From contig CAIMLX010000205.1 of NCBI GenBank assembly GCA_903842455.1, positions 1-64,000 of the forward strand: 64,000 bases of DNA, written 5' to 3'. Each line of letters begins with the position of its first letter. Position 1 is the first letter of the stretch. Below the pieces are notes generated by a model. The model worked only from the letters and a program-made list of their open reading frames with translations. It was not told where the DNA came from and ran no database searches. Both the position numbers and the translations under genes were made by a program. This DNA is from an uncultured Hyphomicrobiales bacterium. GTDB lineage: Bacteria; Pseudomonadota; Alphaproteobacteria; Rhizobiales; Devosiaceae. Positions 60,563-63,897 of the stretch are shown here, in pieces.

Positions 60563-61339
60563 TCAGGTGTGATCGGCGGCGCGGAGGAACTGCTGCAGCC
60601 GCCTCGACTTCGGAGCGTCGAAGACTTCGGCGGGGGTGCCCTCTTCCTCGATCTTGCCGAGGTGCAGGAACACCACTTTGTGGGCGATGGTGCGGGCGAG
60701 GTCCATGTCGTGGGTGACAAGGATCATGGTGCGCCCCTCCTCGGCGAGGAGGCGGATCACCCGCACCACCTCGACTTCGAGCTCGGGGTCGAGGGCGGAG
60801 GTCGGCTCGTCGAACAGCATCACGCGGGGGTTGATGCAGAGGGCGCGGGCGATGGCGGCGCGCTGCTGCTGGCCGCCGGAGAGCTGGCTGGGGTAGTTCG
60901 CCGCCTTGTCGAGGATACCGACCTTGCCGAGCATTTCCAGCGCCGCAGCCTCGACCTCGACCTTGTCGCGCTTCTGCACGTGGAGCGGCGCTTCCATGAC
61001 GTTGCCAAGCACCGACATGTGGCTCCACAGGTTGAACTGCTGGAACACCATGCCCAGTTCGGAGCGGATGCGGCGGATCTGCCCTTCGTCGGCCGGATGG
61101 CGGTTCGGTGGCTTGCCGGACAGGCGGATAGCCTCGCCGCCGATCTTGACGCTGCCCTGTTCGGGCACTTCGAGCATGTTGATGCAGCGCAGCAGCGTCG
61201 ATTTGCCGGAGCCGGAGGAGCCGATCAGGGCGACCACCTCGCCCTCGTGCGCGGTGAGCGACACGCCCTTGAGCACTTCAAGCGGCCCGTAGGACTTGTG
61301 GAGATTGTCGATTTCGACGACGGGCGCGGCGTTCTGCAT
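60563..61339 (-). CDS. Amino-acid ABC transporter ATP-binding subunit (HisP/OccP-like)
   Basis: Start ATG 61339 (MQNAAPVVEIDNLHKSYG), 258 residues; the track extension upstream is rejected because it runs through the predicted small-RNA terminator. Walker A GSSGSGKST, Q-loop VFQQFNLWSHM, LSGGQQQRAAIARAL and LFDEPTSALDPELE, with the HisP-type insertion SGKPPNRHPADEGQIRRIRSE. It is the first gene of the five-gene operon and is followed by a 145-base gap before the binding-protein gene, which may hold a second promoter. Confidence 0.92.
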   Translation of the reverse strand: MQNAAPVVEIDNLHKSYGPLEVLKGVSLTAHEGEVVALIGSSGSGKSTLLRCINMLEVPEQGSVKIGGEAIRLSGKPPNRHPADEGQIRRIRSELGMVFQQFNLWSHMSVLGNVMEAPLHVQKRDKVEVEAAALEMLGKVGILDKAANYPSQLSGGQQQRAAIARALCINPRVMLFDEPTSALDPELEVEVVRVIRLLAEEGRTMILVTHDMDLARTIAHKVVFLHLGKIEEEGTPAEVFDAPKSRRLQQFLRAADHT

Positions 61340-61403
61340 GTCGTCCAGCAATGCCGATGTGGGGCGGCCAAGGCAAGCAAATTGCGGACTGTAGGGGACG
61401 CCG

Positions 61404-61537
61404 AAAAGAAGCGACCCCGATCGCGAGATCGGGGCCGCCGCATTCTCGAACCGCGGACCCGGCAGGGACGGCCCGAGTTTCGTGCTCTGGCTAGAAGGAC
61501 CGTCCGCGACGGGACAGACCAGCAGCGAGATGTTGTC
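61404..61537 (-). ncRNA. Candidate EcfG-dependent small RNA next to phyR (GsrN-like)
   Basis: This predicted ~130-nt transcript lies in the 310-base gap between phyR and the amino-acid ABC operon. It begins a few bases after a perfect GGAAC-N16-CGTT EcfG promoter (61569-61545, minus strand). It ends at an excellent intrinsic terminator: a 12-bp stem with one G-U pair (61438-61411) and TTCTTTT. It is downstream of the phyR terminator, so it is a separate unit. No ORF of credible length or ribosome site is present. Pairable segments GGACGG and CCGTCC suggest an internal hairpin with pyrimidine-rich loops. Caulobacter GsrN is a sigma-T-dependent small RNA and the natural comparison; sequence homology is untested. 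It could alternatively be a leader of the ABC operon with an attenuator. Confidence 0.55.
61411..61438 (-). terminator. Intrinsic terminator of the predicted small RNA
   Basis: Minus-strand stem GCGGCCCCGATC / GATCGGGGTCGC with a TCGC tetraloop and TTCTTTT immediately after. It is 72 bases upstream of the ABC ATPase start, a position that suits the end of an independent short transcript. Confidence 0.85.
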
Positions 61538-61544
61538 AGAGGCT

Positions 61545-61569
61545 AACGGGGAGACGGGCGGGTGGTTCC
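61545..61569 (-). promoter_or_regulatory. EcfG-type promoter of the predicted small RNA
   Basis: On the minus strand GGAAC (61569-61565), a spacer of exactly 16 bases and CGTT (61548-61545) match the alphaproteobacterial general-stress sigma factor consensus fully. It points away from phyR and is not followed by a nearby start codon. Confidence 0.75.
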
Positions 61570-61595
61570 AGTGCTGCACCTAGTGTTGCAGCACA

Positions 61596-61622
61596 AGAAA
61601 AAGGCCGGGCAACTGCCCGGCC
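61596..61622 (-). terminator. Intrinsic terminator of phyR
   Basis: Minus-strand hairpin GGCCGGGC-AGTT-GCCCGGCC followed by TTTTTCTT, 28 bases after the phyR stop. A second palindrome (GTGCTGCA/TGCAGCAC, 61571-61594) lies directly behind it. Confidence 0.9.
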
Positions 61623-61649
61623 TGAAGTGGTTGCATGGGAAACTGTCGT

Positions 61650-62444
61650 TCACGCTGCGGCGCGTGAGCCTTCGTCGAAGAAGAGAGCCTGGCTGATCAG
61701 AGCCTTCACCATGTCGGGGTTGAACGGCTTGGTAACGAGGAAGGTCGGCTCGGGGCGCTCGCCGGTCAGCAGACGCTCGGGGAAAGCGGTGATGAAGATC
61801 ACCGGGATCGGATGGGCGTGGAGGATGTCGTTGACCGCGTCGATACCCGAGGACCCGTCGGCGAGCTGAATGTCGGCGAGGATCATGCGCGGCTTGGTCT
61901 TGTGGTAAAGCGCCACGGCTTCCTTGTGGGTGCGGGCGATCCCGACCACGCGGTGGCCAAGGCCCTCGACCATCTGCTCGATATCCATTGCAATGAGCGG
62001 CTCGTCCTCGATGATGAGGATGTCGGTTGCCACCTGCCGGGAAATCTCCTGGCTGGCCTCGTCAAGCAGCGTCGCGAAGCTGCCCGAGTCTACACTCAGG
62101 ATTTCCGCGGCCTCGTCGTGGGCGAAACCTTCCACCGACACCAGCAGGAAAGCCTGCCGGGCGCGGGGGGTGAGGTTGAGAAGATTGGCGGCGGCGCGGC
62201 TTTCCCAAGGGAAGCTCGACACCGGGTCCGGCACCTTCACGGCAGTGCTCGAGAACATGGTCGAGAACAGCCGGTACAGCGAGATCCGGTCGTTGCTCGC
62301 TTCGGGGAAGATCGAGAGATCGGCGATCAGCGCTTCGAGCGCCGCGGCCACGTAGGCGTCCCCCGAGGTTTGCGAGCCCGTAACCGCACGCGCGAAACGG
62401 CGCAGGTACGGAAGATGCGGGGCGATCCGCGTGGACAATGACAT
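61650..62444 (-). CDS. phyR: General stress response regulator PhyR (sigma-like anti-anti-sigma factor)
   Basis: A 264-residue protein. Residues 1-135 form a sigma-factor-like domain (sigma2/sigma4 mimic, with NLLNLTPRARQAFLLVSVEGFAHDEAAEIL). Residues 140-260 form a receiver with acidic residues in LIIEDEPLIAMD, phosphoacceptor Asp191 in ADIQLADG, FITAFPE and the VTKPF lysine. Phosphorylated PhyR binds NepR and frees EcfG. It is divergent from nepR-ecfG, and a perfect EcfG promoter lies about 46 bases upstream, so it is positively autoregulated. The cognate HWE/HisKA2 kinase is not in this window. Confidence 0.97.
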   Translation of the reverse strand: MSLSTRIAPHLPYLRRFARAVTGSQTSGDAYVAAALEALIADLSIFPEASNDRISLYRLFSTMFSSTAVKVPDPVSSFPWESRAAANLLNLTPRARQAFLLVSVEGFAHDEAAEILSVDSGSFATLLDEASQEISRQVATDILIIEDEPLIAMDIEQMVEGLGHRVVGIARTHKEAVALYHKTKPRMILADIQLADGSSGIDAVNDILHAHPIPVIFITAFPERLLTGERPEPTFLVTKPFNPDMVKALISQALFFDEGSRAAA

Positions 62445-62489: not shown

Positions 62490-62514
62490 AACGGGCGCGT
62501 CAAAATAAGGTTCC
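62490..62514 (-). promoter_or_regulatory. EcfG-type promoter of phyR
   Basis: Minus-strand GGAAC (62514-62510), 16-base spacer, CGTT (62493-62490). The predicted start leaves a leader of about 40 bases that carries AAGGGAG before the phyR ATG. Confidence 0.88.
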
Positions 62515-62602: not shown

Positions 62603-62806
62603 ATGCGAGACAAGAAGACAATGAACGATATGAGCAGCATCAGGCGGCTACAGGAAGATGGGCTGGGTCCGAACTCGGACATCGGCAACAAGTTGCGCGC
62701 GCTCTATGGCGCCGTGCAGGAAGAGGGTATCCCGAACCAGCTTCTCGACCTGCTTGACCGCCTCGACGAAGTCGAACGGCAGAGCAAGTCCGGCAAGGAC
62801 GAGTGA
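62603..62806 (+). CDS. nepR: Anti-sigma factor NepR
   Basis: The track frame begins at 62438, overlapping phyR, but the real start is within ATG 62603 (AAGGG upstream), 62621 or 62630; 62603 gives 67 residues. The conserved NepR core is present: NSDIGNKLRALYGAVQEEGIPNQLLDLLDRLDE, two amphipathic helices that clamp EcfG or PhyR. It keeps EcfG inactive without stress. The stop is four bases before the ecfG start, so the two are coupled. Confidence 0.95.
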   Translation: MRDKKTMNDMSSIRRLQEDGLGPNSDIGNKLRALYGAVQEEGIPNQLLDLLDRLDEVERQSKSGKDE

Positions 62807-62810
62807 GGCC

Positions 62811-63398
62811 ATGGCTCTTCCAAGCACTATTGCCGGCGCCACGTCCCGCCCCGAGACACCGACCTTCAAGCGCGAGCTGCTCGCTACCCTGCCAAGCCTG
62901 CGGGCCTTTGCGGTGTCGCTGTCGGGTCGGCACGACAAGGCCGATGACCTGGTGCAGGACACGGTGATGAAGGCCTGGGCCAAGCAGGACAGTTTCGAGC
63001 TCGGCACCAACATCAAGGCGTGGCTGTTCACCATCCTGCGCAACGAGTTCTACAGCCAGATGCGCAAGCGCGGCCGGGAGGTGCAGGACACCGACGGGGC
63101 GTTCACCGAGCGCATGGCCGTGCACCCCAGCCAGTACGGCATCGTCGACCTCAACGACTTCCGCAAGGCGCTCGACAAGCTGCCGGACGACCAGCGCGAA
63201 GCGGTGATCCTCATCGGAGCCTCCGGCTTTTCGTACGAAGAAGCAGCGGAAATCTGCCATTGCGCCATCGGCACGATGAAGAGCCGGGTCAGCCGGGCGC
63301 GCACCAAGCTGCAGGAACTGCTGCAGGTTGCCGGCGAATCCGACTACGGCCCGGATGCGGTCTCGGCGCAGGTGACTTCTACTCCCAACCTCAGCTGA
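62811..63398 (+). CDS. ecfG: General stress ECF sigma factor EcfG
   Basis: Start ATG 62811 (GAGG upstream), 195 residues. Region 2 comprises FKRELLATLPSLRAFAVSLSGRHDKADDLVQDTVMKAWAKQDSFELGTNIKAWLFTILRNEFYS; region 4 comprises ALDKLPDDQREAVILIGASGFSYEEAAEICHCAIGTMKSRVSRARTKLQELL. This is the ECF15 (EcfG) group. It directs RNA polymerase to GGAAC/CGTT promoters, three of which are visible around this locus. Its stop overlaps the stop of the convergent receiver gene in the palindrome TCAGCTGA. Confidence 0.97.
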   Translation: MALPSTIAGATSRPETPTFKRELLATLPSLRAFAVSLSGRHDKADDLVQDTVMKAWAKQDSFELGTNIKAWLFTILRNEFYSQMRKRGREVQDTDGAFTERMAVHPSQYGIVDLNDFRKALDKLPDDQREAVILIGASGFSYEEAAEICHCAIGTMKSRVSRARTKLQELLQVAGESDYGPDAVSAQVTSTPNLS

Positions 63399-63750
63399 TA
63401 CGAGCTTTCGCGGCGTCGCAGGCAAGCTTCAAGCGTGCGGCGTCGAACGGCTTTTCAAGCGGCTGGGCATGCGGAAAGTTAGACAGCGACGCCTTGTCTG
63501 CCGACATCACCACGGTAGGAAGGCCAGCCTGAACCAGCCGCTGCGTCAGGGCCACAACTGCCGGCGCCCCCAGTTTCGCTTCGACCAGGGCAAGGTGGAA
63601 GCGCGTGGGGTCGACGGTATGCCCTTCGGCTTCGCTGACGCTGCGGTAGTGGGTGACTTCGACCGGGCAATCCTCCGAGAGCACGTACTCGATGTCGAGC
63701 GCGAGCAGTGTCTCTTCCTCGATGATGAGGATGCAGTGGGTTGAGGGCAT
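63391..63750 (-). CDS. Stand-alone pseudo-receiver protein next to ecfG
   Basis: The start is taken at ATG 63750 (MPSTHCILIIEEE), 119 residues; ATG 63786 would add 12. It has the receiver fold with acidic residues in LIIEEETLLALD and the conserved lysine in LEKPFD. The phosphoacceptor position is occupied by Glu57 (LALVEAKLG) instead of Asp. Such Asp-to-Glu receivers cannot be phosphorylated normally and may mimic the active state. Its location, tail to tail with ecfG, suggests a role in the stress response, as single-domain receivers modulate this pathway in other alphaproteobacteria. Confidence 0.8.
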   Translation of the reverse strand: MPSTHCILIIEEETLLALDIEYVLSEDCPVEVTHYRSVSEAEGHTVDPTRFHLALVEAKLGAPAVVALTQRLVQAGLPTVVMSADKASLSNFPHAQPLEKPFDAARLKLACDAAKARIS

Positions 63751-63897
63751 GGCAGGTCCGTGACGCGGGTGGAACCCGGCATGCATAACGGCCGCTCACC
63801 ATCGGTCATTTAAAAAAGACACTCTGCAAGCGGGCAACCGGCGGACATCGGCTGGCGTTGACGACAGAATTAAGCAAGGAATCGGCAGAACCAAACC

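Follow-up and report, generated by a model that had tools for sequence, protein, structure and literature searches.

Gene order and predicted transcript at the phyR locus

In the window, the 64,000-nucleotide stretch of DNA analysed here, the general stress locus comprises phyR, encoding the anti-anti-sigma response regulator (61650–62444, minus strand; assigned by Pfam and PDB relatives), and, on the plus strand, nepR for the anti-sigma factor (62603–62806; Pfam NepR) and ecfG for an ECF sigma factor (62811–63398; Pfam sigma-70 regions 2 and 4). An EcfG box was located upstream of phyR by motif scan (62490–62514, minus strand). Beside ecfG, a 131-aa ORF (63391–63786, minus strand) reads like a response-regulator receiver domain and has no Pfam match. 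Downstream of phyR, the minus strand carries, in order, the phyR terminator (61602–61623, from a terminator scan), a perfect EcfG box, a gap with no supported ORF, a strong terminator, and an ABC transporter ATPase gene (60563–61339; Pfam), the last being the first gene of a downstream amino-acid ABC operon and lying outside the unit considered here.

The EcfG-type promoter box of the unit, GGAAC-N16-CGTT (GGAACCACCCGCCCGTCTCCCCGTT; 61545–61569, minus strand), is orthologous to the promoter of a DUF1328 gene in related species. The unit ends in an intrinsic terminator with a TTCTTTT tail (61403–61439, minus strand; terminator scan and alignment), the stem of which (61439–61410) comprises 13 pairs by the scan's count, nine of them G-C. 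Both elements had been pointed out in a preliminary description of the locus and were found again at these positions, the stem having been given there as 12 bp. Together they predict a transcript of ~135 nt (61404–61538, minus strand), its start placed ~7 nt past CGTT and its 3' end within the T-run. The fold of this predicted transcript outscores those of all 200 of 200 shuffled sequences (z −3.3). An Rfam search at the RNA gave no family above the gathering score; the sub-threshold matches (SorY, SorX and suhB) all fall on the phyR terminator.

On motif count alone the EcfG box is unremarkable. The window contains two perfect boxes, one upstream of phyR and the other at the RNA unit, against 1.1 expected, a count within chance (31 of 100 shuffles reach two). 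It is the comparison with relatives, rather than this count, that makes the box convincing: a box occupies the equivalent site in 10 of the 10 species that carry the conserved hairpin described below, for which chance is no explanation. The description of the gap as ORF-free calls for one qualification. No supported ORF is present, but in the window the frame of the ABC ATPase runs open from 61339 past the entire RNA, as far as a GTG at 61579. It closes sooner in G012, the sister species, so the open frame across the RNA does not mark a conserved coding region. Automated annotation could nevertheless call a spurious 338-aa protein from it and so mask the RNA.

Probable origin of the unit from a DUF1328 gene

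A DNA search of 40 related genomes identified the sister species G012, with 83% identity over the whole stretch, and a core of ~47 bases at the hairpin and terminator in eight further species of the genus. The genus is judged to be Devosia from two named records, Devosia sp. Root413D1 and a Devosia MAG, each matching one of the species; these were the two Devosia records returned, along with chance matches in unrelated taxa, by a scan of named genomes for the core, its pattern covering a two-base loop variant only and so providing no census. The core lies downstream of phyR in all ten species. In eight of these, the EcfG box is followed by an intact ORF of 54–55 aa, assigned to DUF1328 by Pfam (52.9 bits), then by the hairpin and finally by the terminator. 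The window and G012 lack the ORF but keep promoter, hairpin and terminator, and the window species' own genome contains no DUF1328 match above the Pfam cut-off. The place where relatives have the 5' UTR and DUF1328 ORF is occupied by a fast-changing leader (61478–61544, minus strand; defined by alignment and the G012 comparison), within which 27 nt (61505–61531, minus strand) are probably a remnant of the last DUF1328 codons. Among 2000 shuffles each, 21 (window) and 12 (G012) attain the summed alignment score for this ORF end.

The arrangement of phyR, EcfG box and DUF1328 gene extends beyond the genus to others in the family, and beyond the family to others in the order, which argues that the ORF is ancestral and was lost in the window lineage. 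In the other genera examined, a terminator comes soon after the DUF1328 ORF, without the hairpin. A phyR tree places the window species and G012 together, adjoined by G009, which has lost the entire unit; the eight ORF-plus-hairpin species lie beside this group, and G016, in which the DUF1328 ORF is present without the hairpin, branches just outside. This tree fits a single hairpin gain and a single ORF loss, which would be the simplest history. As a matter of history alone, the comparisons allow high confidence that the RNA unit is orthologous to the DUF1328 unit and has lost its ORF.

The relatives also bear on an alternative raised in the preliminary description, by which the unit serves the amino-acid ABC operon as a leader or attenuator under EcfG control. 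The ABC ATPase gene is indeed next on the same strand in the window and G012, but in G015, G001 and G017 a convergent CsbD gene intervenes between the hairpin-terminator and the ABC gene, so that the idea fails as a rule and appears very improbable. Several relatives (L068, L070, L073) have a convergent CsbD-family gene with its own EcfG box beyond the hairpin unit; such a gene is absent downstream of the unit in the window and G012.

A gene for a DUF1328 small membrane protein immediately downstream of phyR, preceded by an EcfG box, is widespread in Hyphomicrobiales (loci L067–L074, L076, L084–L090, L092, L095–L097 and L100, and, in other families, L259, L260, L262–L265, L268 and L270) and has the look of a core component of the general stress locus that has gone unstudied. 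In G007 (L077, 129–296, plus strand), a strongly diverged DUF1328-like ORF (MLYHAMMFLAATLVAGVVGFAGIPGT...) stands behind an EcfG box at the same site and is perhaps on its way to loss. A distant alphaproteobacterium, G556, has an EcfG-type box before a DUF1328-like gene ~6.5 kb from phyR (L221, 784–545, minus strand), so EcfG control of the DUF1328 family may be old.

Conservation of the hairpin after ORF loss

The probable functional core of the RNA is a conserved 33-nt hairpin (CTCGGGCCGTCCCTGCCGGGTCCGCGGTTCGAG; 61445–61477, minus strand), delineated by search, alignment and covariation. It stands just before the terminator in ten species, with one strong copy per genome and only downstream of phyR. 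A dispersed palindromic repeat is ruled out by this single strong copy. No hairpin copies were found outside the Devosia clade, weak matches to the hairpin model outside the genus (E 0.002–0.05) being treated as chance. Its inner sequence is nearly constant across the ten species, with no variation in GTCC and GCCGGGTCCGCG or in the stretch GCCGGGUCCGCG, and all hairpin cells pair. Alignment of the region downstream of phyR, which had been suggested as a way to find compensatory changes, reveals two hairpin pairs changed on both sides and five more in the terminator; this pairing and its two-sided changes are rarely matched by shuffled controls. A search for complementarity between the inner sequence and the phyR and nepR leaders gave no consistent signal in the 10 genomes.

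The position of the hairpin, always directly before the terminator and fused to it in the fold, would suit a purely cis-acting element with no role in trans, for instance one that stabilises the mRNA, marks a site for processing or belongs to a composite terminator. Such a restricted role is improbable given that the window and G012 have no coding sequence left to serve, that other genera finish the DUF1328 gene with a plain terminator, and that invariant letters fall in the inner loop and bulge, not just at pairing positions.

The window and G012 also permit a comparison of rates among the parts of the unit. Between them, 0 of 33 hairpin positions, 1 of 41 terminator positions and 1 of 25 box positions have changed, compared with 10 of 67 in the leader and 7 of 24 in the spacer before the box; phyR diverges by ~0.18 changes per site. 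Fisher tests against the leader give p 0.028 for the hairpin and p 0.003 for hairpin plus terminator (1 of 74). That the hairpin has changed more slowly is the strongest sign of a function retained by the RNA once the ORF had gone; the evidence is moderate, since it comes from a single pair of ORF-less genomes and the p value for the hairpin alone is modest. The expectation that close relatives would retain promoter and terminator holds for all ten hairpin-carrying species but not for six other species of the genus, from which the whole unit is absent, making the RNA dispensable in the genus.

The main rival reading starts from such losses. It takes the unit for a decaying relic, in which promoter, hairpin and terminator still yield a short RNA that is functionless and bound to erode: the DUF1328 ORF is already gone, relatives have dropped the entire unit with nothing evidently taking its place, and the terminator may persist merely to block transcription into neighbouring genes. 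An unchanged hairpin beside a leader, a spacer and a phyR gene that have all diverged speaks against this reading, as does an EcfG box that is intact in both the window and G012, and simple decay is considered unlikely. Retention of both the stress promoter and the conserved hairpin after coding loss suggests instead that the RNA probably still does something. The likeliest identity of the unit is a ~135-nt EcfG-driven sRNA, a 3'-UTR RNA that has outlived its own coding sequence, with the hairpin as its probable active part; a functional EcfG-driven sRNA of DUF1328-unit origin is given a probability of about 0.6. The earlier proposal of a discrete, EcfG-promoted and terminator-bounded transcript at the phyR locus thus gains support from conservation, as a predicted transcript.

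Relation to GsrN and other stress RNAs

The preliminary description had further suggested that the RNA may be the Hyphomicrobiales counterpart of GsrN. GsrN is a sigma-T-dependent sRNA of Caulobacter, and predictions of GsrN-like RNAs near phyR extend to Rhizobiaceae, Brucella and others (PMC5869019). GsrN of the Caulobacteraceae type base-pairs with G-rich RNAs, the katG leader among them. The proposed covariance-model check went against this suggestion. With a model (R2) built from 18 Caulobacteraceae GsrN sequences, the window RNA scores 11.1 bits, compared with 93–111 bits for six held-out GsrN genes, a low score by which it fails the defining test of GsrN; over 19 genomes of the genus the model found nothing above chance (best 23 bits, E 0.1). 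The combination of a long 5' stem, an exposed C7-9 loop and a CGATGAT segment that characterises GsrN of the Caulobacteraceae type is not found in the window RNA. Looser published criteria for GsrN-like RNAs are a near-consensus EcfG box, nearness to phyR-nepR-ecfG, intergenic transcription and an exposed C-rich 5' loop (PMC5869019). In promoter and position the unit agrees with these: its box is perfect and kept in ten species, and it lies directly downstream of phyR. Its 5' loop is CGUCGC and its conserved hairpin loop UGCC, neither giving the C-rich 5' loop.

The window RNA thus resembles GsrN and GsrN-like RNAs in its EcfG-type box, its site at phyR-nepR-ecfG, a similar length on the order of 100 nt and an intrinsic terminator (PMC5869019), and in a Caulobacteraceae genome (locus L219) GsrN likewise follows phyR on the same strand. 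Divergence from a common GsrN ancestor is nonetheless scarcely credible: besides the gap in model scores, the Devosia RNA shows no sequence match, has no C-run loop exposed at its 5' end, is conserved in its 3' half, and derives from a DUF1328 message instead.

RNAs derived from messages provide another comparison, among them those of Rhodobacter sphaeroides, where one source is the DUF1127 gene ccaF1. CcsR1-4 (from ccaF1) and UdsC are 3'-UTR-derived sRNAs (PMC8625941, PMC9779115) that share with the Devosia RNA a conserved 3'-UTR RNA of a stress-induced small-protein gene, use of the mRNA's alternative-sigma promoter, and an end at the terminator. The sequences are unrelated, and in the Rhodobacter cases RNase E cuts the sRNA free from a message that still has its ORF, whereas the window has lost the ORF, leaving the promoter joined to the RNA. 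In eight relatives the element lies between stop codon and terminator, as expected of a 3'-UTR sRNA; the window no longer has the ORF. If ORF-bearing Devosia release such an RNA from the 3' UTR, this would parallel CcsR1-4 and UdsC (PMC8625941). SgrS/SgrT (PMC4021124) offers a similar layout, a single stress-induced transcript in which a small ORF comes first and a conserved RNA element stands ahead of the terminator; in both, the protein part is less conserved than the RNA part. Sequence, regulator and protein are unrelated, and base pairing has been demonstrated for SgrS but only proposed for the Devosia RNA.

The most probable course of events begins with an ancestral EcfG-driven DUF1328 gene downstream of phyR, as is common in much of Hyphomicrobiales. 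In one Devosia lineage its message probably gained a 3'-UTR hairpin, and in the lineage of the window and G012 a deletion then probably removed the bulk of the ORF together with the ribosome-binding site, fusing the EcfG promoter to the last DUF1328 codons and the 3' UTR. When, under stress, phosphorylated PhyR pulls NepR off EcfG, EcfG RNA polymerase would be expected to make ~135 nt, stopping at 61439–61403. The product would most likely be a regulatory sRNA that works through the conserved hairpin and its invariant GTCC and GCCGGGTCCGCG, the inner sequence acting through base pairing or protein binding. In ORF-bearing relatives, the hairpin element would either be set free from the DUF1328 mRNA or work as part of it. 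Support at the sequence level comes from synteny, hairpin conservation, absence of the ORF and a hairpin that has changed less quickly than the leader since the ORF was lost; transcription by EcfG is predicted from box and locus, as are the expression of the RNA, its EcfG dependence, its exact ends and its regulatory mode from the features described above. The fuller proposal, in which a message became a regulatory RNA when a 3'-UTR hairpin with its own function took over the unit after the coding deletion, leaving Devosia with a general-stress sRNA that occupies the place of GsrN without being related to it, stands at roughly even odds.

Should the RNA be made and working, relatives with and without the ORF would constitute a ready comparison for the birth of sRNAs from messages. 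If the proposal is true, the spot downstream of phyR houses unrelated stress RNAs in different lineages, so that the published way of recognising GsrN-like RNAs outside Caulobacteraceae, by position and EcfG box (PMC5869019), can lump RNAs of different origins. The DUF1328 protein encoded beside phyR is an unstudied, likely EcfG target in many Hyphomicrobiales.
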